From assembly GCA_017451915.1 (NCBI GenBank), contig JAFTNJ010000052.1, forward strand, positions 1-43,359: a DNA stretch of 43,359 nt. Reading direction: 5' to 3'. This document shows positions 2 to 23,381 of this stretch, piece by piece (position 1 is the first letter of the stretch; each line of letters begins with the position of its first letter). The DNA comes from Clostridia bacterium (lineage in GTDB: Bacteria > Bacillota > Clostridia > Oscillospirales > CAG-272). Made by a program: the position numbers and the translations under genes. The notes under the pieces are model-generated. The model was not told the origin of the DNA and ran no database searches. It saw only the letters and a list, made by a program, of their open reading frames with translations.

Positions 2-235
2 ATTATGAAGCAGATCACGGGCTACGTTCCGGTCTGCATTGCCTGCGGAGGGAAGGAGCTGGACGCGATTGACGATATTTTATCCAAAAAGGTTTTGCGC
101 AAGCTGGAGGCGCAGAATCCCGTATACGTAAAGAGCATGGTGCCCGGACTTTGCGGGTATCTTGACGAGCTCTTTGGAACCGACCGTATGCCGCTGTGCA
201 AGGAGTATTTGCGGCGGCTGGAAAGGAGCGCGTAA
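2..235 (+). CDS. C-terminal fragment of an unidentified protein, cut by the left edge
   Basis: The frame is open from base 2, so the methionine at base 5 is not a demonstrated start and the gene very probably begins outside the window. About 77 residues are visible: soluble, mostly helical in character, with a charged stretch around DDILSKKVLRKLEAQ and a leucine/arginine-rich end. The pattern is loosely like the C-terminal helical lid of McrB/dynein-type AAA+ ATPases, which sometimes precede transglutaminase genes, but this is inference from a short piece. The stop codon ends one base before the next ATG, and the next gene's ribosome binding site (GGAAAGGAG, 221-229) lies in its last codons, so the two are surely cotranscribed and probably translationally coupled. 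Confidence 0.6.
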   Translation: MMKQITGYVPVCIACGGKELDAIDDILSKKVLRKLEAQNPVYVKSMVPGLCGYLDELFGTDRMPLCKEYLRRLERSA

Positions 236-236
236 G

Positions 237-3200
237 ATGAATAAGCAAAAATCCAAGCTGTACGTAATTGGTTGCTCGGTCATCGGCGTTGCCGCTTTGT
301 TGTTGGTCTATTTCATTCTGGTGGCCACGGGTCTGGCCCACGCAACCCAAAACAAGCTGATCTTTACCTCCGGGAGCGGAGAAAAGATCTACGATGGCTC
401 TCCCCTGACCTGCGGGGAATGGCGCTTCAGCGAGGGGCGTCTCCAGGCAGGACACCACGCCGAGGTGCGGGTGGAGGGAAGCCTCACCCTGCCCGGGGAG
501 GTACAAAACACCCTGTTCGTCAAGATCGTAGACGACCAGGGCTTGGACGTGACCGGGGAATACGAGATCGAGTGCCGTCCCGGCACCCTGAAGGTCCTTG
601 GCCTGCCCCTGGTGTTTGAATCGGGCTCGGCGGAGAAGCCCTACGATGGGACGCCCCTGTCCTCGGACGCCTGCGTGCTGGTCACCGGCAGCCTTCTGGA
701 GGGGCATACCTTTGAGGCCATTGCCATTGGCATGATCACCGAGGTGGGCTCGGTATCCAACCTGATCCAGGTGCGGATCTACGACGAGGCCACGGGCAAG
801 GACGTTTCCTATTACTATGACGTGGAATGTCGCCACGGAACCCTGACGATTTACGGAGAAGGGAACAGCAGCGGAAGCGGTGGCGGAAACGGTGGCGGCG
901 GAGCCGCGGGAAGCGTGACCGGGGACATCAACGATTCCAATAAGAATCCCCAGGACACGGGCGTCCTTTTTGAGGTTTATACCAAAACCGCCGCAAAGCT
1001 GCTGCTTCGGCAGATGGTCTACGGCGATTATCTGGGCAACGGCTGGGGCAAGGCTCCCGTATGGAACTCTGCCGAGGCCGGTGTGGAGATCGATCCCGAC
1101 TTTTTTGCCGCTTACATTTTAAAGGAGTCGGGGTTTCCCCAGGGTTCCGTATCCTTCTCCTTTCAACAAAATTGCGGCTATATGGCTCCTTATTACTATC
1201 TTGGAGGGGAGCTGGATCAGCTTCCCGAGGGATTTCGACAGAACCGCATCTATGTGGGCAGCTACATTCCGTTTTCTTACGAGAGTGAAAGCTACGGCAC
1301 CCTTTCGGTTGCCTATGCCAACGAGGAGGCTATTTATCGGAGCTACGTTTACAGTACCTATCTCTCCCTGCCTCAAACCACGGCCAATGCCATGCTTGCC
1401 ATTGCAAGGGAGCAGGGGCTGGACGGGATCCTTGATCCCGGGCAGCAGATCCGTGCCGTGGCCAAATATATTCGCGGCGCGGCCAAATACAATATGAATT
1501 ATGCTCCCTACCCCGAGGGGGTGGATACGGCGGTCTATTTTCTGACCGATGCCAAGGAGGGCGTGTGCCGTCATTACGCCACCTCTGCCGTGGCCATGTA
1601 CCGCGCTCTGGGGATCCCCGCACGCTATGCCGTGGGTTATTCGGTACAGACCACGGGGGATGGCTGGGTCCAGGTGGAGGGTAAGAACGGCCACGCCTGG
1701 GTCGAGGTCTACGTCAACGGCCTTGGCTGGGTCAGCGTTGATCCCACCGGCAGTGCCGGTGCGGGCGGCGGTGAAGGCGGCGGAGGCGGCGAAGGTGGCG
1801 GCTCTGAGGGCGGCACCGGCGGCGCGTTTGCTCCCGAGGAGACCGGCGACCTCAACCAGAACGGCGGAGGCGGCGCAGCCGGTGGCGGAGATTCCGTGAT
1901 CTTCGCCTTCACCTCCACCGTTGGGGGAAGGATCCTGTTCCGTCAGCGCAGCTACGGCGACTACCTGGGTAGCGGCTGGGGCGCGAGCTCCTCTTATCGG
2001 GATGCCTCGCTGATCACCAATCCTCTCAAGGCCACCACCCTGACGCTATCGGAGTCGGAGTATTCTTCGGCCACGGTGAAGATCAATCCCTACACGAACA
2101 TGACCTTTGTGGCTCCCTATTATCTTTATGATGCTGCCATTGGACTTGGCGGAAAAGACGGCGACGTATTTATAAATTACCCTATGAGGGTTGGATACGC
2201 CTACCGTCATACTTACATTCTCTACGATTATCTGGAGGATCCCGGATTGGCATCCCCCGGAGTCAGCTGGTCGTCTTGCTCCTCGGCATACGAGGCCTTC
2301 GTTCAGCAGGAATACCTCTCTTTGCCCGACGAGACCCGGGCGGCCCTGGAGGCCATTGCCAAGGAACAGGGCTTTTACGAGATTCAAAGTCAAAAGCAGT
2401 TGATCCTTGCCGTGCGCGACTATATCCGCGGCGCGGCGACCTACAACAAGGCGTTTGCCTCCTATCCCGAGGGCGTGGACACGGCGGTTTATTTCCTGAC
2501 CGAGTCCCGGGAGGGCGTTTGCCGTCAGTTTGCCACGGCGGCTACCGCCATGTACCGTGCCCTGGGCATTCCCGCCCGCTATACGGTGGGCTATGCCTCC
2601 ACCGGAGTGGCAGGAAAGAGTGTGGAAGTGGTCTCCGACGACGGTCATGCCTGGGTAGAGATCTACCTGAACGGCATTGGTTGGGTTGCCATTGATCCCA
2701 CCCCCGGCTCCACCGCCGGTGAGGACAATACCTTGACCCTTGCCCCCGAGCCGATCGAAAAGATCTACGACGGCACGCCTCTGTCTGCCGCCGGTGTCAA
2801 GGTCGTTCTGCAGGGCGGTACCCTGCAAAAGGGACACACCGTTGTGGCAACTGTGATCGGAGAGCAGACCCAAGTGGGCAAGGGCATTTCCCGAATCATC
2901 GGGTTCCATATCCTTGACGAGAACGGACGGGACGTGACCGCGCTGTATCCCATTCGATTGAAGGTCGGAACCGTCACCGTCAAGCCTATTCCCCTAACGG
3001 TGGCCACCTCCGGCGGAAGCAAGAGCTACGACGGTATCCCGCTGACGGGTGCCGGCTGGAGGCTGACCTCGGGAACCCTCCTGGAGGGACACACCCTGGT
3101 GGGACAGACCACGGGATCCCTGACCAAGGTGGGAGCCTGCTACAATTTCTTTCGCGGTGACGTGATCGACGCCAACGGCAATTCTGTGCGAGGTTACTAC

Positions 3201-3527
3201 GAAATCACCGTGGAGTGTGGCCAGCTGACGGTGACCCCTGCCGCGCTGAAGGTGACGGCCGAGAGCACCACGCAAACCTACACGCCGCCCACGGGAGAGC
3301 CGTATCCGGGTTGGGATTCCTTCTCCTTTGCCGAGTACCGTTGGGAGGGGGATCTTCCCGAAGGACACACCCTGACCGTCGATTTTTTGAACATTCCCTA
3401 TGGCGTAGGTCTGTTTGACAACGTGATCCTGGGAGTGACCGTGTACAATGAACAGCACGAGGACGTGACCTCCTGCTTTACCATTACCTACGTCAACGGA
3501 CAGATCATCATTCTACCGCCCTCGTAA
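237..3527 (+). CDS. Membrane-anchored double-transglutaminase protein with MBG/YDG-type repeats
   Basis: 1096 residues. The frame is open further upstream, but ATG 237 is chosen because GGAAAGGAG ends 7 bases before it and an N-terminal membrane anchor (about residues 8-30) follows. Domain order: two YDG/MBG-like repeats (each with K-x-YDG-x-PL, a central GH, and a D-V-T...G-x-L-x-V end), a glycine-rich linker, transglutaminase unit 1, a second glycine-rich linker, transglutaminase unit 2, then three more repeats. Both transglutaminase cores keep the Cys-His-Asp triad: C444/H486/D502 and C762/H804/D820, in the contexts EGVC-R, GHAW and DPT. Each core is preceded by a similar stretch containing YGDYLG-x-GWG, so the whole unit is duplicated. 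The family (PF01841-like) makes or breaks isopeptide bonds or acts as a protease; which applies here is unknown. There is no LPXTG motif, so anchoring is N-terminal with the bulk outside the cell. It heads a four-gene operon. Confidence 0.93.
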   Translation: MNKQKSKLYVIGCSVIGVAALLLVYFILVATGLAHATQNKLIFTSGSGEKIYDGSPLTCGEWRFSEGRLQAGHHAEVRVEGSLTLPGEVQNTLFVKIVDDQGLDVTGEYEIECRPGTLKVLGLPLVFESGSAEKPYDGTPLSSDACVLVTGSLLEGHTFEAIAIGMITEVGSVSNLIQVRIYDEATGKDVSYYYDVECRHGTLTIYGEGNSSGSGGGNGGGGAAGSVTGDINDSNKNPQDTGVLFEVYTKTAAKLLLRQMVYGDYLGNGWGKAPVWNSAEAGVEIDPDFFAAYILKESGFPQGSVSFSFQQNCGYMAPYYYLGGELDQLPEGFRQNRIYVGSYIPFSYESESYGTLSVAYANEEAIYRSYVYSTYLSLPQTTANAMLAIAREQGLDGILDPGQQIRAVAKYIRGAAKYNMNYAPYPEGVDTAVYFLTDAKEGVCRHYATSAVAMYRALGIPARYAVGYSVQTTGDGWVQVEGKNGHAWVEVYVNGLGWVSVDPTGSAGAGGGEGGGGGEGGGSEGGTGGAFAPEETGDLNQNGGGGAAGGGDSVIFAFTSTVGGRILFRQRSYGDYLGSGWGASSSYRDASLITNPLKATTLTLSESEYSSATVKINPYTNMTFVAPYYLYDAAIGLGGKDGDVFINYPMRVGYAYRHTYILYDYLEDPGLASPGVSWSSCSSAYEAFVQQEYLSLPDETRAALEAIAKEQGFYEIQSQKQLILAVRDYIRGAATYNKAFASYPEGVDTAVYFLTESREGVCRQFATAATAMYRALGIPARYTVGYASTGVAGKSVEVVSDDGHAWVEIYLNGIGWVAIDPTPGSTAGEDNTLTLAPEPIEKIYDGTPLSAAGVKVVLQGGTLQKGHTVVATVIGEQTQVGKGISRIIGFHILDENGRDVTALYPIRLKVGTVTVKPIPLTVATSGGSKSYDGIPLTGAGWRLTSGTLLEGHTLVGQTTGSLTKVGACYNFFRGDVIDANGNSVRGYYEITVECGQLTVTPAALKVTAESTTQTYTPPTGEPYPGWDSFSFAEYRWEGDLPEGHTLTVDFLNIPYGVGLFDNVILGVTVYNEQHEDVTSCFTITYVNGQIIILPPS

Positions 3528-3565
3528 CCACAGTTTTTCATTTCTTAGAAAGGAGGAATATCGCC

Positions 3566-6500
3566 GTGAATTATCAAGCGTATGAGGAAAAGATGCAACG
3601 CATTGCCCAAAGGATCCAATGGGTACGCAGATACCGCTATCTGCTGCTGGCCGGCGGTATTGCTCTGTTGGCGCTTTGCGCCACGCTGCTCCTTCTCCAG
3701 GGCGCGCTCCTGTCGGATGCCTCGGCACCCGAGGAGCCCTTGGTCTACGGCTCTCCCACATCCTTCCGCGCCAATGCCTTCCTGGGCAGGGTTACCTTCG
3801 AGTACCGCGTCGCGGGGGAAGGGGAGGCCTGGAGCACCGAGCTCCCCCGTTTGCCCGGCAACTACCTGGCACGGGCGGTCAGCCATCGCACCTTTGGCCG
3901 CGTGACCTACGGTGCCGAGCTTGCCTTCTCTATTCTTCCCGCCCCCTTGGAGGTGCGTGCCGAGGATCGGGTGGTCTACGGCGATACGCCCAAGGGCGTG
4001 GCCAACGGCCTGCAATACGGCGACCGCCTGGAGACCTGCAGCGTTCTCCTTGGAGAGGAGCATGACATGCGGATCCCCACCGACGTGGATCTCGCCTCGG
4101 TGCGCGTGGTCAACGCGCAGGGCGAGGACGTGACCTCCGCTTACGCAATCACCGTTGCCTCGCAAAGCGTAACGGTTCTGCCCCGTCCCATCACCATTAC
4201 CATGGCCAGTGCCGAAAAGGTTTATGACGGCAAAGCGTTGACCGCCATGGGACATCAGATCACGGCGGGAAGCCTGACGAATGGCGATACCGTAAAGCTG
4301 ACCGTGGAAGTCTCCCTGACCAACGTGGTGGCGGGAGGCGTTGAAAACGCTCCCACCTCGGTGCGCATTCGTTCCTCCCGCGGAGAGGATTATACCTCCC
4401 GCTACGAGATCACCGTTGTGGCCGGACGCTTGACGGTGCTGCCACGTCCCATTACGATTGCGACGGGGAGCGCGGAAAAGATCTATGACGGCATCGAGCT
4501 TACCTCCTTAGAGTATACCTTGGTGGAGGGCAGCCTGGTGGCGGGACATATCGAGTATATGGTCGAGATTTGCACCCTACTGACGGCAGGGAGCATGGAG
4601 AACCGTCCCGTGTTCGAGATCATAACCACCGGCGGCGGTATCGACCGCACCTCCAACTATGAGATCACTTATCAATGCGGTACCTTGACCGTCCACCCCC
4701 GTCCCGTGCGTATCCGCGCCTCCAGCTACACCTGGTTCTACGACGGGAATCTGCATCAGGGTGACCACCTTTCCCCCAAGTTTACCCTGGAGTGGGGCGA
4801 CGGCTTTTATACGCTGGCTACGGGGGACACCCTGACCTGTGACGCCACCTCCGGCCTGGATCTGGTGAGCGAGGTCCACAACCGCCTCTCCAATCCTCGG
4901 GTGACCAATGGGGCGGGGCAGGACGTAACCTCCTCCTATACCTTTACTCTGGAGGACGGTCTGCTCAAGGTGGTTCCTTGTCCCATTACCGTTGCGGCCC
5001 CCAATAAGCAATGGGAATACACCGGGCAGACCGAGGCCGCGAGCGGCGAGGTCTTTCCCGTCTTCGGGTATCCCGACGGCAGTCTTCCCAAGCTGGAGAA
5101 CGGCGACGTGACCGATACGCAGGCAAGCAATCTTCCGCAGGTGGTTCTTGGCACCTTCCGCGCCCTTTATAAGCCCTCCACCTTCCCTGTGGATGTGGGC
5201 GCTTATTCCTACACGCCCGTGAATATTCAGATCCAGAATCTGAACCTGCAAAACAAGGACGTGACCTCGTATTTTGAGATCTATACCAAGGACGGCACCT
5301 TTACGGTGCAGCCGCGGAATATTCTTATCACCACCGCCTCCACCAGCTTCGTTTACGACGGGCAGGCCCACTACGATCCCAACTATACCGTGGTCCATCT
5401 CAAATCCGGAAACCAAAAACCCGACGGAACCTGGTCTACCGATACCACCGTGTCGGCTCTCTGCGTAGCACACAGCCTGGAGCTGATCAATTACGTAAGC
5501 ATTACCGATGCGGGAAAGATCGAAAACCGCCCCTCCCAAGCAATTATCACCGATCACACCGGGCGGGACGTGACCTTTAATTATAATATCCTTTACGAGT
5601 GCGGAGAGATTTGGGTGGTGCCGCGTCCCTTGTACCTGGAGCCCTGTGACGTATCCCTGATCTATAACGGAAGCACCCAGCATCCCAGCTCGGCCGAAGG
5701 CTATTACCGCATCGTTGACATGGATAACGGATCCGGCGGCGTAGCGCGGGCGATTTCCTTCAACGGTCTGGTGCTGGATCACCGCATTTCCAAGGTGTCC
5801 ACCCGCGGCAGCCTTCTGAATGTGGGCGAATGCGATTTTTCTCTGTTAAATGCTACCGTATGTGACGGTAACGGCAGGGACGTGACTCACAACTACGACG
5901 TTACGTTTGTCAACAACATTGCCGTCCTGACCATCCTTCCCCGACCCATTACCATTACTACCGAGAGCGACGAAAAATTCTTCGACGGTGATATGCTCTG
6001 CGGGGAGACCTTCTGGGTCAGCCAAGGTTCGTTGGCAACCGGACATACCCTGGACGGCAAAGCCTGGGGCGAGCAGTTGGGCATTGGCAACACCCACACC
6101 CGCTTGGAGTGGTATGAGATCTACGATGCCGTCGGTACCCAAGTGACTTACAACTACGACGTCACCGTGGTGGCGGGAGAGCTGTTGGTTAAGGAGCGTC
6201 CCGACAGGCCCTTGGTGGAGATTCGTCCCTATCATATTCAAAAGACCTATACCGGAGAGCTGGTCTCCTGTGGAAATACGGAGTTTTGGATCGCGGAGGG
6301 CAGAGAATTCCTTCCCGAGGGATATCGAATCGAAACCGAGATCCGAGGTAGCTATTGGGATATCGGCAACTGGGATACCGCCCTGCTTTGGATCCGAATC
6401 TACGATGGCGACGGCAACGATATTACCGCCCAATTCAACGTCAAGGCCCCCTACGGAACCATTTCCATCGTGCCGATCCGTTTGGTGGTCAGCTCCAAGT

Positions 6501-6925
6501 CGGCGGAAAAGATCTTTGACGGAACCCCGCTGACCAATCCGGAGTATCTTATCACCTTTGGTCGGTTGTTGGAGGGACATTCCCTTCAGGTGCAGGTATC
6601 GGGCGAGCAAACCGAGGTGGGAAGCTCGCAAAACGGATTCCTGGTCACCGGAATTGTGGACGCCAACGGCAACGACGTGACCCAATATTACGATGTTGAG
6701 CTCAAGCCCGGCACCCTGACCGTGCTGAGCGATCCCAACGCAGACCCGAACGTAGAGATTGTTATCCCCGAGTATCCCAACCTCCCCTGGTTGGACGCGG
6801 ACGTTGACGATCTTGGAACCGACTATCCCACTCTGGAGGACGATCCGATCCTCGAGGAGGATGCGGACGACGTGACCACAACCATACCCGATTCTACCGT
6901 TGACGAACCCGTCACCGAAGAATAA
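3566..6925 (+). CDS. Giant membrane-anchored repeat protein (about ten MBG/YDG-like repeats)
   Basis: 1119 residues, GTG start at 3566 set by a perfect AGGAGG at 3551-3556. A cytoplasmic N-terminus of about 25 residues precedes one transmembrane helix (about 25-50). The rest is extracellular and built of about ten beta-sandwich-like repeats. Most open with a (F/Y)-(Y/F)-(D/N/T)-G motif (VYDG, IYDG, FYDG, EYTG, IYNG, FFDG, TYTG, IFDG), contain N/D-G/A-x-G-x-DVT-x-x-Y, and end in G-x-L-x-V-x-PRP-I-x-I. The last about 50 residues are acidic and Thr/Asp-rich, with no sortase motif. The repeats match those of the upstream transglutaminase protein, making this a plausible structural partner or substrate; that is inference. 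It lies 38 bp downstream of the transglutaminase gene in the same operon. MBG-like domains occur in adhesins and other surface proteins of gut bacteria. Confidence 0.92.
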   Translation: MNYQAYEEKMQRIAQRIQWVRRYRYLLLAGGIALLALCATLLLLQGALLSDASAPEEPLVYGSPTSFRANAFLGRVTFEYRVAGEGEAWSTELPRLPGNYLARAVSHRTFGRVTYGAELAFSILPAPLEVRAEDRVVYGDTPKGVANGLQYGDRLETCSVLLGEEHDMRIPTDVDLASVRVVNAQGEDVTSAYAITVASQSVTVLPRPITITMASAEKVYDGKALTAMGHQITAGSLTNGDTVKLTVEVSLTNVVAGGVENAPTSVRIRSSRGEDYTSRYEITVVAGRLTVLPRPITIATGSAEKIYDGIELTSLEYTLVEGSLVAGHIEYMVEICTLLTAGSMENRPVFEIITTGGGIDRTSNYEITYQCGTLTVHPRPVRIRASSYTWFYDGNLHQGDHLSPKFTLEWGDGFYTLATGDTLTCDATSGLDLVSEVHNRLSNPRVTNGAGQDVTSSYTFTLEDGLLKVVPCPITVAAPNKQWEYTGQTEAASGEVFPVFGYPDGSLPKLENGDVTDTQASNLPQVVLGTFRALYKPSTFPVDVGAYSYTPVNIQIQNLNLQNKDVTSYFEIYTKDGTFTVQPRNILITTASTSFVYDGQAHYDPNYTVVHLKSGNQKPDGTWSTDTTVSALCVAHSLELINYVSITDAGKIENRPSQAIITDHTGRDVTFNYNILYECGEIWVVPRPLYLEPCDVSLIYNGSTQHPSSAEGYYRIVDMDNGSGGVARAISFNGLVLDHRISKVSTRGSLLNVGECDFSLLNATVCDGNGRDVTHNYDVTFVNNIAVLTILPRPITITTESDEKFFDGDMLCGETFWVSQGSLATGHTLDGKAWGEQLGIGNTHTRLEWYEIYDAVGTQVTYNYDVTVVAGELLVKERPDRPLVEIRPYHIQKTYTGELVSCGNTEFWIAEGREFLPEGYRIETEIRGSYWDIGNWDTALLWIRIYDGDGNDITAQFNVKAPYGTISIVPIRLVVSSKSAEKIFDGTPLTNPEYLITFGRLLEGHSLQVQVSGEQTEVGSSQNGFLVTGIVDANGNDVTQYYDVELKPGTLTVLSDPNADPNVEIVIPEYPNLPWLDADVDDLGTDYPTLEDDPILEEDADDVTTTIPDSTVDEPVTEE

Positions 6926-6958
6926 ATAAGCAAAAAACAATGAATAGGAGGATCTCTT

Positions 6959-7780
6959 ATGAAAACACAAAACGCATTGAACCATTTGAAGAATGATGCC
7001 AAGTATAAGCAGGGACGTTACGCCCTCTTGCTGATCGCCATCTTCTCCATCGTCAACCTCTTTTCGGTGGTGCTTACCGAAACCTATTATCTCTTCTCGT
7101 CCTACATCACCCAGTTCCTGGCCATTTTGGGCTACACCCTTTACGTGGAGACCGGTGCCATCGTTTGGGTCATCGTCTTTGGCCTTTTGGGCCTGATCAG
7201 CGTGGTGCCCTACCTGGTTTGCTACTTCCTTTCCAAAAAGAAGGTGGGCTGGATGATCGCATCCCTGGTGCTCTTCTCCCTGGATTCCCTGATCTTCTGC
7301 GTTCTGGAGCTGCCCTACTTTGACGTGTCCATGCTGTTGGACGTTGTCATTCGCGTCTGGGCGCTGGTATCCCTGGCTTTGGGCGTAAAGTACGGCGTTG
7401 CCCTGAAGGATGCTCCCGAGAGCGAGGAGCCCACGCTGCTGAACACCGACGAGACCGCCGAGGCCGCCGATGACGGGCAGGACGAACTGTCCTTTGTGGA
7501 GCGTCGCATCACCTTGACCCGCGCCAAGTCCTTTGTGGGCTGTGCCATTGCCCTGAGCTGTATTGTGGACGGCAAGGTTGTGGAAACGATCAAGAACGGA
7601 GAGACCAAGACCATTCGCATCAACGGTAAGGCCTGCGAGTTTGTTGTAATGTCGCCCAACGGTGACGCCAGCGAGATCATGCAGATCCCCGCGGGCTATG
7701 AGAGCCGTGCCTACACCGTGCGCTGCAAGACCGGAATGACCTCCTTCCGCGTGATCCTGGAGGAGACGAAGGAAGCGTAA
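6959..7780 (+). CDS. Polytopic membrane protein with a C-terminal soluble beta-rich domain, unknown function
   Basis: 273 residues; ATG 6959 sits behind a TAGGAGG site (6946-6952). About four or five hydrophobic helices fill residues 20-145. An acidic linker (about 147-172) leads to a soluble domain of about 95 residues with predicted strands (RITLTRAKSFVG, VDGKVVETIKNGET). That domain resembles the small VDG-x-x-V-x-x-I-K-NGE beta domains found at the ends of clostridial membrane proteins; I cannot name its family. Last gene of the operon, 33 bp after the repeat protein and just before a strong terminator. Its place suggests an accessory role for the surface repeat proteins, such as export or anchoring, but nothing in the sequence proves this. 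Confidence 0.88.
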   Translation: MKTQNALNHLKNDAKYKQGRYALLLIAIFSIVNLFSVVLTETYYLFSSYITQFLAILGYTLYVETGAIVWVIVFGLLGLISVVPYLVCYFLSKKKVGWMIASLVLFSLDSLIFCVLELPYFDVSMLLDVVIRVWALVSLALGVKYGVALKDAPESEEPTLLNTDETAEAADDGQDELSFVERRITLTRAKSFVGCAIALSCIVDGKVVETIKNGETKTIRINGKACEFVVMSPNGDASEIMQIPAGYESRAYTVRCKTGMTSFRVILEETKEA

Positions 7781-7802
7781 AATTCTGTTCTATCATGCTA
7801 TC

Positions 7803-7846
7803 AAAAAGCCGTTTTTCGCACTACGGTGTGCAAAAACGGCTTTTTT
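7803..7846 (+). terminator. Rho-independent terminator of the surface-repeat operon
   Basis: The arms AAAAAGCCGTTTTT-CGCA and CAAAAACGGCTTTTTT form a GC-centred stem with an A-tract before and a T6 tract after. It lies 23 bp after the stop of the polytopic membrane protein. Confidence 0.85.
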
Positions 7847-7883
7847 GCGTCCTTTTGGTCGGTTCAGGGGTGGCGAGGAGGCG

Positions 7884-7982
7884 ATTTTCCACACCTGTCC
7901 TGCAAATTGCCTTTTTCAAAGGCCAAAAAAGCATCACGTATAAGAAACTTGGCCAATTTTGCACAGGTGTGCGTTTTTTTCA
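7884..7982 (+). other. Long imperfect hairpin followed by a T-tract in a gene-free stretch
   Basis: CACACCTGT (7890-7898) pairs perfectly with ACAGGTGTG (7963-7971). The stem continues inward imperfectly through GCAAATTG / CAATTTTGC and GCC/GGC, and a run of T residues begins at 7974. No open frame of note and no promoter were seen directly upstream. It could be a second terminator, a small structured RNA or a degenerate palindromic repeat. Apart from this and the promoter at 8068, the 7847-8100 stretch holds nothing I recognise. Confidence 0.5.
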
Positions 7983-8067
7983 GCCTCTTGCCTCTGTAAA
8001 ACAGCCTCTTTTTTGGAAAAAACGAAAAAAATTTTGCAAAACGCCCCCAAAAATGGAGGGATTTGTA

Positions 8068-8096
8068 TTGACATTATTTTTTCGTTATGTTATAAT
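8068..8096 (+). promoter_or_regulatory. Sigma-A promoter for the transmembrane surface protein
   Basis: TTGACA at 8068-8073 and TATAAT at 8091-8096 with an exact 17 bp spacer. The expected transcript starts near 8103, giving a leader of about 75 bases before ATG 8177. Confidence 0.9.
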
Positions 8097-8176
8097 AAAT
8101 CAGGTTGTAGTTTCTTCCAAGGGAAGAAGGTACATCAAAGACCTGCCAATTTTTAGGAAGGAAGGGTTGAATTGCG

Positions 8177-11041
8177 ATGAAAAATCAACAAAACGCAATC
8201 AAAACGCGCAAGCTGTCGCTCCTGGCCGTTGCTCTGGTAACGCTGGCACTGCTGCTTTGCTCGTTCACTATGATGGTGTCCGCCGCAGCGGGGGATATTA
8301 CCATCGGTCTGGAGGACGTGAAGATCGATCTGGATCAGGACGTTTCCGGAAAATACACCAAGGTGTTTGATAACACCACCAACGTCACGGTGACGCTGAC
8401 CGCCTCCAATGAGGATCTCGGCATTGCCGCCGGTGACGACGTTACGGTCGTGGTCAACGCCGCTTACAACAGCGCAAACGTTGCCGATGCCACGCACATT
8501 ACCGTGACCTTTGCCCTGGAGGGTGCCGATGCCGCAAAGTATCAGACCCCCGCAGGCTTTACTGTTGGTGCGTCCATCACGCCCAAGGCACTGACCTGGG
8601 CAGATAAGGCCACCTCCAAGCTGACCTACAAGGTGGGACAGTCGGCCTACACCGCCGAGTTCTCCCTGCCTGCGCTGAACGGCGTGGTTGCCGGCTCCGA
8701 GCTCCCCTTTAAGACCGACGCCAAGCACAGCCTGACCCTGCAGGCCACCAAGGTGGGTACCTACACCGAGCTTTACAACCCCAACGTGGGCACCAACTAC
8801 CAGGTAGCCCCCCTCACGGTTGAGGTTACCATTGATCCCGTAACCGTTACCGAGATCAAGTGGGCCAACGAATATGAGTTCACCTACGGTGATGCCGCCG
8901 CCAAGGAGCTGGTGGTAGAGGCCGTTGGTTCCGACGGTGCCACCTATCAACTGGTTGTAACCTATCCCGCCGCCTACGGCTCTGCCGGCTGGCACGAGAT
9001 CAGCGTTTCCTCTCCCGATGCCGGCATCGTTCTCGGCACCGATCTGATTACCTCCAAAAAGGTAAACATCAAGCCCATCACCCTTGCCGTGTTTATGAAT
9101 TCCGCAAGCTTTGTTGGCAATGCCGACACCGCGCAGAATCCTTCGGTTTATCAGCTGGTGGTTTCGGGCGATCTTCCCGCAGAGCTGCGTGAGAAGATCC
9201 AGTACACCGTGGACGGCAAGGCCTTTGCCGGTACCTCGGCGTACGGCATTTACACCGTGGTTGCAAAGCTTCCCGCAGATAGCAACTACGTATTCGTGGA
9301 TGGCGACGGCAAGGAAGTAACCGAGCTGACCGCTACCCTCACCGTCAACCGTGCCGCCGCGGCCTTCGGTACTCCCGAGGCTCCCTACCAGGTGGTTTTG
9401 ACCGGCACCAACGGCGTTGCCGCCAACATTCAGGCAACGGTTTCGATTCCCCAGGCTCTGAATAAGAAGGCTCTGGGCGATCTGACGACCTACAAGGCCT
9501 ACGTGGTTGCCATCGCCAACGCCGGCGAGGAAAGTTACCAGATCCTGATTCCCATTTCCGATACTCTGGTTCATCCTTCCCTGAACCTGATCACCGCCGA
9601 CGATCTTTACATCTATGATGCCGTAGGCGGTACCATGGTCAAGGCCACCCAGGCCGGCTACCAGGTAGCCGTTACCGACGGTTACTTTACCGTTTCGGGT
9701 CTGGTGGGTGACATTTCCCTGACCTTTGTTCTGGCTCCTTCCGTTGCCGATAGCACCAGCTTCTGGTTCACCGCTCCCGGCATTGCCATTCTGATCCTGC
9801 TTGTGATCATTCTGATTCTCCTGATCATCCTGATCGTACGTGAGAAGAACCGCAAGGATGAGCCCGTGGAAGAGCCTGCCGAGGAAGAGCTTCCCACCGA
9901 TGAGGAATTCCTGGAGGAGCTTGCCGAAGAGGTTGCCGAAGAGCTTGCCGAGGAGGTTGCTGCTGAGGAGCCTGCCGAAGCCGAGGCCGAGAACGTTGAG
10001 GAAACCGTGGAAGAGACCATGGAAGAGCTCAACGAGGCGCCTGCCGAGGAGGACAACACGGTTGCCGAGGAGATCGCCGACCAGGTTGCCGAAACTCTGG
10101 AAGAAGAAGTGGTTGTGGAAGAGGCCGAGGCCGAAGCCACCGAGGAAGATCTGCAGAACGCTGTTTCCTCTGCTATGGAAGAGACCCTTGCCTCCGATGA
10201 GAGCGTAGAGGCCTTTGCCGAGGTAGATGATGACGACGACAAGGATGACGAAGGCGATTCCTTCGGTGCCTTTGCCGGAATGGATCTCAACTTTATTGAC
10301 GTTAAGGAACAGCCTGAGGAATACGCCGCACTCCTGGAGCAGGAGAAGAACGGCGAGGTTCAGCTGGTTACCCGTTACCGCAGAAGCTATCAGTCCCGCC
10401 TGATCCAGTCTCAGGGCAACGTTCAGGATTACTACACCATCCTCAAGAACGCACTCCTTTCCTACAAGGGTGTTAAGAGCCGTATCAGCTGGAACTACGA
10501 GGCGTTCAATAAGGGCAGAGCCCACGTGGCAAAGCTCAACGCCAAGACCAAGACCCTGTACCTCTACCTGGCCCTCAATCCCGAGGAGCTGGTGGATACC
10601 AAGTACGGCATCGTGGACGTTTCTTCCAAGAAGAAGTACGCGTCGGTTCCCGTGCTTATGAAGATCAAGGGCGACCGCAAGTTCAAGTATGCTCTGGAGC
10701 TCATTGATAAGCTCTGCGCCGAGCAGATGGAGCTGCCCAAGAAGGCAAACGCCGAGGAAGTGGATTACCACATGCCTTACCAGACCCTGGAGGAGATGGT
10801 AGAGAGCGGCGTTGTAAAGATGCTGGTTGCCGGTGTACCCCTCACCCAAACCGAGGACGAGGCAGTTGCAGACACCGCCGTGGAGACCGAAAGCGATGCA
10901 AATGTATCCTTTGTTGCTCCCGCCGATGCTCCTGCCGTGGTAGCCGCCGCTGAGGAAGTGGCCGCCGAGGAGGAAGCCGTAGAGGTTGCCGCCGAGGCCG
11001 AGGCTCCCGCCGCTGACGCCGAGGAAACCACCGAGGCATAA
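8177..11041 (+). CDS. Type I transmembrane surface protein with a conserved-looking cytoplasmic C-terminal domain
   Basis: 954 residues; the start at 8177 follows AGGAAGGAAGGG with long spacing. A signal peptide (about residues 12-38, ending near VSAAAG) leads to about 490 extracellular residues of beta-sandwich-like modules (phrases such as FTYGDAA, ITPKALTW, VNIKPIT are reminiscent of MBG/YDG repeats). One strong transmembrane helix lies near residues 530-555, followed by an E/A-rich acidic linker (about 560-695). A soluble domain at about 705-880 contains SRLIQSQ, YYTILKNALLSYKGVKSR, SWNYEAFNKGR, LYLYLALNPEE and YALELIDKL. I recognise that domain as recurring in clostridial proteins of unknown function but cannot name it. 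The tail is again Ala/Glu-rich. It has its own promoter and terminator, so is monocistronic. The layout suggests coupling between a surface contact and the cytoplasm, which is inference. Confidence 0.92.
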   Translation: MKNQQNAIKTRKLSLLAVALVTLALLLCSFTMMVSAAAGDITIGLEDVKIDLDQDVSGKYTKVFDNTTNVTVTLTASNEDLGIAAGDDVTVVVNAAYNSANVADATHITVTFALEGADAAKYQTPAGFTVGASITPKALTWADKATSKLTYKVGQSAYTAEFSLPALNGVVAGSELPFKTDAKHSLTLQATKVGTYTELYNPNVGTNYQVAPLTVEVTIDPVTVTEIKWANEYEFTYGDAAAKELVVEAVGSDGATYQLVVTYPAAYGSAGWHEISVSSPDAGIVLGTDLITSKKVNIKPITLAVFMNSASFVGNADTAQNPSVYQLVVSGDLPAELREKIQYTVDGKAFAGTSAYGIYTVVAKLPADSNYVFVDGDGKEVTELTATLTVNRAAAAFGTPEAPYQVVLTGTNGVAANIQATVSIPQALNKKALGDLTTYKAYVVAIANAGEESYQILIPISDTLVHPSLNLITADDLYIYDAVGGTMVKATQAGYQVAVTDGYFTVSGLVGDISLTFVLAPSVADSTSFWFTAPGIAILILLVIILILLIILIVREKNRKDEPVEEPAEEELPTDEEFLEELAEEVAEELAEEVAAEEPAEAEAENVEETVEETMEELNEAPAEEDNTVAEEIADQVAETLEEEVVVEEAEAEATEEDLQNAVSSAMEETLASDESVEAFAEVDDDDDKDDEGDSFGAFAGMDLNFIDVKEQPEEYAALLEQEKNGEVQLVTRYRRSYQSRLIQSQGNVQDYYTILKNALLSYKGVKSRISWNYEAFNKGRAHVAKLNAKTKTLYLYLALNPEELVDTKYGIVDVSSKKKYASVPVLMKIKGDRKFKYALELIDKLCAEQMELPKKANAEEVDYHMPYQTLEEMVESGVVKMLVAGVPLTQTEDEAVADTAVETESDANVSFVAPADAPAVVAAAEEVAAEEEAVEVAAEAEAPAADAEETTEA
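9853..10150 (+). repeat. Low-complexity Glu/Ala-coding repeat tract
   Basis: Near-repeats of GAGGAGCTTGCCGAA and GAGGTTGCCGAA encode an acidic linker of EELAEEVA type just after the transmembrane helix of the surface protein. Such DNA is prone to slippage and length variation. Confidence 0.75.
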
Positions 11042-13435: not shown

Positions 13436-13662
13436 GGGCGAACACAGTTCGCCCCTACAATAAAACAACAAAACCCTTTTTTATTTTTTGTGTCATCCTG
13501 AGCGCAGGCTCGCTTGCGAGCCTGCGCTCAGGATGACACGTTTATCGTTACAAGATTCCGTCACGCTTTGCGTGCCGCCCTCCCTATGGTCGGGTTCGGG
13601 CGAGCTTGCGAGCCTGCTCAGAGATGACACGTAGCCGGTAGGGGAATGCGGTCATCCCCTAC
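13436..13662. repeat. Cluster of palindromic intergenic repeats
   Basis: This gene-free gap holds several palindromes. GGGCGAA-CACAG-TTCGCCC spans 13436-13454. A perfect 22 bp stem with a CTTG loop, 48 bases in all, spans 13491-13538 and starts TGTCATCCTGAGCG. GTAGGGGA/TCCCCTAC lies at 13638-13662, and a damaged second copy of the GCTTGCGAGCCTG core lies near 13602-13619. The TGTCATCCTGAG and GTTCGCCCCTAC wording is familiar from intergenic repeats of gut Clostridia. No coding signal was seen. Confidence 0.8.
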
Positions 13663-22382: not shown

Positions 22383-23381
22383 ATGCCGGGACCCGGTGGA
22401 GGCTCCAGAGGGGGCGGATTTGGAGGAGGATCAAGAGGAGGCGGCTTTGGCGGCGGTTCCCGCGGAGGCGGCTTCGGAGGAGGCTCGCGCGGCGGCGGAT
22501 TTGGCGGCGGCTTTGGAGGCCACGGCCCGCACCGTCCCCCCTTCCATCATCACCATCATCACCACGGCGGCTGGTGGTTCTTTGGTCCCCGTTACTATTA
22601 CGGAGGAGGCGGTGGATGCCTTGGCGGTCTTGTGGGAATGCTTATGCTTCCCATCATTATGCTGATGGTCGTAGGCGTTCTGCTTTTTGCTACCGTTGGC
22701 AGTGCTGTATCCTCGGTGGCCAACGGCGGCGTGGTGCGCTACGACGAGGCGGTCTTCCAGGAATACACCAACAACCGTTATTACGAGGAATTTGCCGATT
22801 CCCAGGCCTTTGAGGATCACGTTCTCATCGTCTTTTTGACCGAGGAGGATGCCGACGGCTACTATGCCATTGCCTGGGTGGGCGATAATTTGCGCGGTGA
22901 GGTAAACGATCTGTTTGGTGCCGAGGGCACCGCCTTTGGCAGAGCCATGAACGCGTCGATCAACGATTACCACGCCTATTCCTTGAGTGCCAACCTGGCG
23001 GCAGTCATGGAGCGCATGACAAGAGAGGTCAACAGCCTGGGATTGGATTCGCCCTTCCGCAAGGCGGGGGATCCCTCGGGCATCGAGCCTCATCTCTCCA
23101 ATTACAGCGAATTGAACGTTTCCTCGTCCACGGTGAACGCGGCTCTGGAGGAGTTTGAAGAGGAAACCGGCATTTGTGCCGTGATCGTGGTGGACAGCAT
23201 GGAGAACGTCTTTGGCAAGAGCGTTCCCGCCACCGATTGGTTTACCATTCTGATATTGCTGGTGATCGGCGGCGTGGCCATTTATATGATCGTGCAAACG
23301 GTTCGGGCCAACAAAAAGAAGGAGGGCTCCGAGGAGGAGTCGGCCGAGGACAAGGAAAGCAAGTATAATCGATACGAATAA
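22383..23381 (+). CDS. Glycine/histidine-rich membrane protein, possible TPM-like domain
   Basis: 332 residues; ATG 22383 behind AGAGAGG. The N-terminus is four GGGSRGGGF units plus a partial one, then a run of seven histidines and WWFFGPRYYYGGGGG, then a transmembrane helix (about 78-108). The extracytoplasmic part has helices and strands (DHVLIVFLTEEDADGYYAIAWVGD, TGICAVIVVDSMENVFGKSV) loosely like TPM/TLP18.3 domains. A second transmembrane helix (about 280-302) and a charged, acidic C-terminus follow. Gly-rich heads with a TPM domain are known from other bacterial membrane proteins. The poly-His stretch could bind metal. It follows the LRR gene by 79 bp and may be in the same transcript. 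Confidence 0.85.
   Translation: MPGPGGGSRGGGFGGGSRGGGFGGGSRGGGFGGGSRGGGFGGGFGGHGPHRPPFHHHHHHHGGWWFFGPRYYYGGGGGCLGGLVGMLMLPIIMLMVVGVLLFATVGSAVSSVANGGVVRYDEAVFQEYTNNRYYEEFADSQAFEDHVLIVFLTEEDADGYYAIAWVGDNLRGEVNDLFGAEGTAFGRAMNASINDYHAYSLSANLAAVMERMTREVNSLGLDSPFRKAGDPSGIEPHLSNYSELNVSSSTVNAALEEFEEETGICAVIVVDSMENVFGKSVPATDWFTILILLVIGGVAIYMIVQTVRANKKKEGSEEESAEDKESKYNRYE
22395..22502 (+). repeat. Four 27 bp tandem units coding GGGSRGGGF
   Basis: Units start at 22395, 22422, 22449 and 22476; a partial unit follows. The Ser-Arg codons differ between units (TCC AGA, TCA AGA, TCC CGC, TCG CGC), so the peptide is kept while the DNA has diverged. Confidence 0.9.

Follow-up and report, generated by a model that had tools for sequence, protein, structure and literature searches.

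The window, i.e., the whole stretch of 43,359 nucleotides analysed here, is contig C54 (positions 1-43359) of genome G000, which comprises 79 contigs (other genomes and loci are designated G and L, respectively). Four open reading frames, named A to D, lie near its start, all on the forward strand, as the initial annotation had read them. That annotation placed the boundaries of the locus at 237 and 11041; the features within these limits are sound, but the placement is not, and the end of an AAA gene immediately upstream was missed. The features are as follows.

2..235, forward strand: 3' end of a McrB-like AAA+ gene truncated by the contig boundary (77 C-terminal residues plus the stop codon), assigned to AAA2 by position
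237..3527, forward strand: gene A, surface protein 1, with a short N-terminus, one transmembrane (TM) segment, YDG-type repeats, two transglutaminase cores and further repeats
264..320, forward strand: predicted membrane anchor of A, from hydropathy
1422..1745, forward strand: transglutaminase core 1 of A, Cys-His-Asp present
2385..2699, forward strand: transglutaminase core 2 of A, Cys-His-Asp present
3566..6925, forward strand: gene B, surface protein 2, with a GTG start, a predicted cytoplasmic tail, one TM segment and 10 YDG-type repeats
3566..3637, forward strand: predicted cytoplasmic tail of B with a Y..Y motif, from the motif count in second surface proteins
6959..7780, forward strand: gene C, with four predicted TM segments, starting 33 bases after B
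8068..8096, forward strand: sigma-70-type promoter match before D, scoring 12/12, a consensus match only
8177..11041, forward strand: gene D, with a YDG-like ectodomain, a TM segment, an acidic linker and a C-terminal conserved domain
10316..10831, forward strand: conserved C-terminal domain of D ("Dcyt"), with no Pfam match of its own

Gene A had been described as encoding a double transglutaminase, and Pfam places two Transglut_core (PF01841) stretches in its product (whole-protein E 8.9e-51). The protein said to be almost only repeats is B, which matches the Pfam families YDG (7.4e-8), MBG (1.8e-5), and AgI_II_C2 (1.2e-17), and in which the Pfam scan found no transglutaminase. With an HMM built in this analysis, YDG-type repeats were matched 5 times in A and 10 times in B. 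The idea that three proteins share one repeat grammar holds for A and B but not for D, which has a single Pfam YDG match (4e-7), hits neither A nor B in BLASTP at E 1e-4, and shares with them only broad membership of the YDG family. A single TM segment, N-terminal in each case, is predicted in A and B. Both differ in this respect from sortase-anchored (LPXTG) pili, and likewise in their C-termini (...QIIILPPS in A and ...VDEPVTEE in B), from which a sorting signal of the LPXTG-TM-charge-tail kind is absent.

The small polytopic protein of the initial annotation is C, with its four predicted TM segments. It is perhaps co-transcribed with B in the window, and it had no match in any fetched locus except the window's own. 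Gene D does encode a membrane-spanning protein, with a TM segment near residue 536 and an acidic, presumably cytoplasmic C-terminal part, but its membership in one unit with A and B is not borne out. The promoter scan returned 9 matches where 6.8 were expected, so only the 12/12 score of the match before D is notable; this consensus match marks D as a putative separate transcription unit. In the congener G133 (L074), D lies next to cysE and tmk, and neither B nor AAA was found in that genome. Among 146 genomes of the family, D-like proteins occur in 27 and B-like proteins in 21, mostly different genomes, with matches to both in G000, G005, and G120. A single locus of four genes is not supported, given the block kept in G133, the promoter match and the unmatched C, and neither is the casting of D as a signalling member. 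Genome distribution, the G133 block, the promoter match and the unmatched C together led us to reject membership of C and D in the system; D belongs with cysE-tmk and not with A and B.

Some further features were recorded around these genes. Paralogues of Dcyt are found in TM proteins of the same genus (G000:C20:6401-7258 and L079-L081), where they adjoin a conserved multi-TM protein of 1266-1376 residues. Elsewhere in the window, an inverted repeat of 20 pairs with an 8-base loop lies at 13491-13538, downstream of a lipoprotein-like gene, and positions 22383-23381 encode a protein that has TM segments, a run of His and, at its N-terminus, a Gly-rich repeat (GGFGGGSRG).

The stop codon of the AAA stub lies one base before A. 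The stub is 77% identical to an AAA+ protein in G115 and, in L062, to the C-terminus of either AAA protein; no other AAA match was found in the genome of the window, nor was X, described below. In relatives, an AAA gene precedes the A-like gene and is itself preceded by X and then by a second AAA gene, such that the operon reads AAA0 (variable), AAA1, X, AAA2, surface protein 1, surface protein 2. Being the C-terminus of a McrB-like AAA+ protein of the membrane-anchored kind, the stub identifies the rest of the operon. Conservation of gene order among relatives, the check proposed with the initial annotation, is seen for the A-B pair but not for C and D. As a pair of surface repeat proteins, A and B are real and recur among relatives, and they are almost certainly the last two genes of this operon.

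Counting the SipW-type motor discussed below, the AAA gene was found in 39 of 146 genomes of the family and in 48 of 391 of the class, 20 of the latter at more than 250 bits. All 11 of the B-positive family genomes with a match to the N-terminus of B have AAA; among the other 10, it is present in three (G005, G103, and G121) and absent from seven. A profile scan of genome contigs with the AAA alignment gave at least 598 stretches, of which at least 586 were confirmed, and the best 80 were kept. They correspond to 76 loci, some of which are close relatives, so that counts among these best matches are not population frequencies. By record title, they come from Clostridia, Oscillospiraceae, Lachnospiraceae, Anaeroplasma(taceae), Bacilli, Ruminococcus, and others, mostly as metagenome-assembled genomes, and the operon is also present in a named strain, Anaerocaecibacter muris CLA-AA-M11 (L097).

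The strict order AAA-X-AAA followed by two surface proteins was seen in 31 of these 76 best-matching loci, with mostly short gaps; many of the other 45 are short contigs or have reading frames masked by the greedy choice of ORFs. Where at least 2 kb follow the last AAA gene, a downstream YDG/transglutaminase gene was found in 53 of 62 loci and was not called in nine (L096, L101, L140, L153, L154, L158, L159, L162, and L165). Upstream of AAA0 (L095-L166), a 3-TM protein recurs in 23 loci and a 1-TM protein in 16, and the L099 copies of both had no Pfam match. With the L097 AAA protein as the only query, there was no sign of carriage on mobile elements: 50,697 phage records gave two weak matches, and 72,556 plasmid records gave 266, all below 60% identity and none covering 80% of the query.

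The motor can be called McrB-like with great confidence. In a profile search, the best PDB match of the AAA family alignment is McrB (E 2.5e-5), and the motifs of McrB-type AAA+ proteins are found in the relatives, the window holding only the C-terminal 77 residues: among 89 AAA1 and AAA2 proteins, Walker A is present in 88, Walker B in 87, and GTANxDD in 84. The sequence GTANNDDS fits a NxD motif followed by D and also NxxD. The two motors differ in their predicted anchors, with one TM segment in AAA1 (43/44) and two in AAA2 (45/45).

Within a locus, AAA1 and AAA2 share 85-96% protein identity over more than 380 residues in 21 of 47 pairs, among them those of L054, L062, L097, L099, and 17 other loci. 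Third-position identity, counted in matched A, G, P, T, V, L, S, and R codons, is 92-99% in 20 of these 21 pairs and 77% in L105. In the tree of the cores, AAA1 and AAA2 are exact sisters in 23 of 41 usable loci, whereas the N-terminal anchors follow position: of the 82 that had a match, 81 have their nearest relative at the corresponding position of a different locus. The two motors form separate clades (support 1.0 and 0.995) in one group of eight loci, of Lachnospiraceae type. Old paralogues with cores homogenised by gene conversion appear to explain this pattern best, the alternative being independent replacement. Near-duplication of the two cores also accounts for contigs that end inside AAA, as happens in 5 of the 11 genomes: G000, G069, and G104, plus G068 and G128, in which both broken ends are of this kind. 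The window would accordingly lack the 5' part of the operon through an assembly break in the nearly duplicated AAA core.

Protein X consists of a DUF2357-like domain, i.e., the N-terminal domain of McrC, and coiled-coil-like segments. DUF2357 was matched by Pfam in 20 of 40 members at E 0.01, with a best value of 1.1e-6. McrC ancestry is likely rather than proven, since the match in L099 (21.5 bits) falls below the Pfam cut-off of 23.3 and the X profile found only coiled coils, and no McrC, in the PDB; on this sequence evidence, X is probably McrC-like. Among the first 25 of 34 Pfam families listed for the 40 X proteins there was no nuclease, PD-(D/E)xK or other, which leaves room for a divergent one. 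Pfam likewise found none in AAA0 or in the small upstream proteins of L099, and no HEPN or other nuclease of the CoCoNuT type in the operon proteins scanned, which represent a subset of genes and loci. NCBIfam searches with A to C and with X returned nothing.

The candidates for AAA0 are 35 proteins of at least 600 residues. Those of L153 and L154 are true AAA proteins with all three motifs; for the other 33, three loose motif patterns gave one match at most, and in 27 no match at all. All 30 of the candidates that were aligned (L092, L102, L130, L153, and L154 were left out) carry GH3 C-terminal and Fn3-like domains, with a GH3 N-terminal domain in three. TM hairpins join the GH3/Fn3-like part to a degenerate AAA part of McrB-like type, as in L099:3352-6945, L097:3021-6215, and 28 further loci. 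Two or four TM segments separate the two parts in 27 of the 30 (not in L097, L100, and L107); because this number is even, the GH3-like and the AAA-like parts should both be cytoplasmic. A shorter AAA0 of 482 residues, with neither GH3 nor any Pfam match, exists in L166.

A Y..Y motif precedes the TM segment of the second surface protein, and B of the window carries such a tail (VNYQAYEEKMQRIA...). In the 51 loci with two same-strand surface ORFs, out of 83 examined, the position-based count gave this motif in 46 second and in none of the first surface proteins, against a background of 15 among 336 other ORFs with an early TM segment. YDG proteins from loci without the operon had it in 0 of 8 cases, two of which have no TM call. 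The first tyrosine usually lies 22-23 residues from the membrane segment. Among the five exceptions, L064 and L132 are one locus present twice, in which Y..Y lies on its own upstream ORF, L151 combines the motif with a TM segment below threshold, and L133 and L149 have a partial form. A column profile of the tail was built on rows picked by Y..Y, so that its invariant tyrosines are circular and were set aside; mean column identity was no higher in the tail (0.29) than in residues 47-120 (0.31). The case for the tail therefore rests on the 46/51 count. We infer that this tail, which would bind the motor, is the best candidate for coupling cargo to it.

The first reading of the locus had been built around the enzyme of A, a centre that the relatives do not share: in the 62 loci where 2 kb or more follow the last AAA gene, a downstream transglutaminase is present in 28, compared with 53 for YDG/transglutaminase surface genes in general. 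What stays constant beside the surface genes are the McrB-like and McrC-like genes, located outside the window. When ten first surface proteins without a transglutaminase call were rescanned with Pfam, they remained negative, which makes the transglutaminase an optional part of the operon. Nor is the double core a fixed trait. After removal of two duplicates (L062 of L091 and L064 of L132), transglutaminases occur in 38 loci altogether; two cores lie in one protein in the window, L092, L116, L151, and L166, three in L128, and in the 32 others each protein has one core. The Cys-His-Asp residues are kept in 52 of 55 domains, which makes cross-linking by the enzyme of A plausible. It is not universal in the operon, as 34 of the 62 loci have no transglutaminase call.

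A sister system was found with the same motor family. Its AAA copies, of approximately 530 residues, were taken from 14 genomes of the same family; together with those of L085, L087, and four Ruminococcus loci, they form a single clade (20/20 members, support 0.98), and a SipW-like signal peptidase lies near AAA-X in all 20 loci. The peptidase of L158 matches the NCBIfam SipW family at 8.7e-35, below the family cut-off, and an HMM scan with this one query gave a SipW-like match in none of the 68 YDG/transglutaminase loci, among 87 scanned with full ORF sets. In most of L167-L180, SipW-like genes flank AAA-X on both sides, and proteins matching a "TasA-like" pattern, our own regular expression, also occur. 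The proximity of the sister clade to SipW-like peptidases suggests that two kinds of exported cargo accompany one motor family. SipW is known from the secretion of TasA fibres in Bacillus. The sister clade resembles that system in that its motors adjoin exported, probably fibre-forming proteins; the YDG-type loci differ from it in having no SipW-like gene and a cargo that is TM-anchored.

The 20 SipW-linked motors are probably CoCoPALMs, which are named and left for later in passages of PMC11090510, where they are described as an FtsB-like, TM-anchored McrB with signal peptidases. This is also the closest named kind for the YDG-type operon. The likeness lies in a membrane-anchored McrB-like NTPase, a McrC-like partner with no detected nuclease, a link to exported proteins, and GTANNDD, which can be read as the NxD motif given for that branch, though also as NxxD. 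The difference is that the same passages define CoCoPALM by the FtsB-like domain and signal-peptidase neighbours (PMC11090510), whereas the YDG-type operon encodes a pair of motors, often a GH3-like/degenerate-AAA protein as well, and cargo of the YDG/transglutaminase kind. In the open-licence literature, the term occurs, barring chance matches, only in PMC11090510 and its preprint. No open-licence paper links McrB with transglutaminase or with GH3 in its title, and none mentions DUF2357 and transglutaminase jointly; PMC3710099, on HEPN domains, contains both McrB and transglutaminase.

In two loci of the sister system, Dcyt is fused to a McrC-like protein (L085:8391-10781 and L087:7999-9703), the fusion in L087 having a weak DUF5655 match (E 0.028). 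The domain of D may therefore take part in the same biology as the motor system, an unexplained hint.

From co-encoding, topology, the tail and the cargo of the sister clade, we infer that a membrane machine derived from McrBC and driven by NTP acts through the tail on the two surface proteins and builds or remodels a fibre; we give this reading a probability of about 0.58. AAA1 and AAA2 would form a cytoplasmic ring at the membrane, which X would stimulate as McrC stimulates McrB. The ring would engage the cytoplasmic tail of surface protein 2, and NTP hydrolysis would power the insertion, ordering or remodelling of the two YDG-repeat proteins on the outer side. Where present, the transglutaminase core could then fix the fibre by isopeptide bonds to itself, to its partner or to the wall. 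Somewhat short of even odds, and tentatively, we propose the fuller picture of an undescribed transmembrane machine: two McrB-like motors with different anchors, whose cores gene conversion keeps identical, a McrC-like activator lacking a nuclease, and a cytoplasmic GH3-like/degenerate-AAA protein would act on paired YDG-repeat proteins via their conserved cytoplasmic tail, a restriction-type NTPase thereby driving the assembly or mechanical remodelling of a surface fibre with covalent cross-links in many gut Firmicutes.

An unlikely alternative is surface-triggered defence or contact sensing, in which the repeat proteins would sense phage or neighbours and the McrBC-like ring would act as effector in the conflict, in the manner of type IV restriction and CoCoNuT systems. 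The AAA+ proteins with McrB-type motifs and the DUF2357 matches of X do recall McrBC; the candidate-defence model PDC-M26A of PADLOC matches AAA1 (4e-46) and AAA2 (5e-46), and this match and the ancestry are mainly what keeps the alternative in consideration. Patchy presence, 39/146 in the family and 48/391 in the class with the SipW-type motor included, and large, variable ectodomains also fit it. Against this, N-terminal membrane anchors here replace the DNA-binding domains of McrBC, the neighbours are surface proteins, the sister clade accompanies signal peptidases, and none of the phage records reaches 80% coverage of the AAA query. Moreover, Pfam found no nuclease in X, in AAA0 or in the small upstream proteins from L099, whereas CoCoNuTs without an active McrC nuclease always carry another predicted one, according to passages of PMC11090510.

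It is improbable that A and B work alone as an adhesin or wall-stabilising locus next to co-transcribed AAA and X genes with another job. Transglutaminase repeat proteins could act without a motor, and YDG proteins without the AAA-linked tail do occur elsewhere (the motif being found in 0/8), but the strict order of 31 of the 76 best-matching loci, the presence of AAA in 11 of 11 genomes, and a tail specific to the operon all favour a joint function. Very improbable, and already largely refuted, is the cross-linked adhesin of four genes with D as its signalling component that was first proposed: adjacency, the YDG-like ectodomain, TM segment and cytoplasmic domain of D, and the Dcyt fusions in L085 and L087 speak for it, but D-cysE-tmk stands without B or AAA in G133, D has its own promoter match, C is unmatched in the fetched relatives, and D-like and B genomes mostly differ. 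MoxR AAA+ proteins, DUF58 proteins and TgpA transglutaminases form a known grouping, and a chaperone system of this kind with VWA or DUF58 partners, suggested by AAA_5 matches in some AAA copies and by AAA+ and transglutaminase in one operon, is the least probable reading, the MoxR/VWA assignment being rejected on the McrB matches in the PDB and on Pfam scans of the operon proteins examined, which gave no VWA or DUF58, while the transglutaminase here lies in a repeat ectodomain.

McrBC systems are defence machines that cut DNA or, by prediction, RNA. If the machine reading is true, the operon extends the McrB/McrC NTPase family to the cell surface, with which the SipW-linked sister clade agrees. 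It leads to testable predictions, namely tail binding, X-stimulated NTP hydrolysis and isopeptide bonds, and it would offer a candidate function for large gut-bacterial repeat proteins that lack one.
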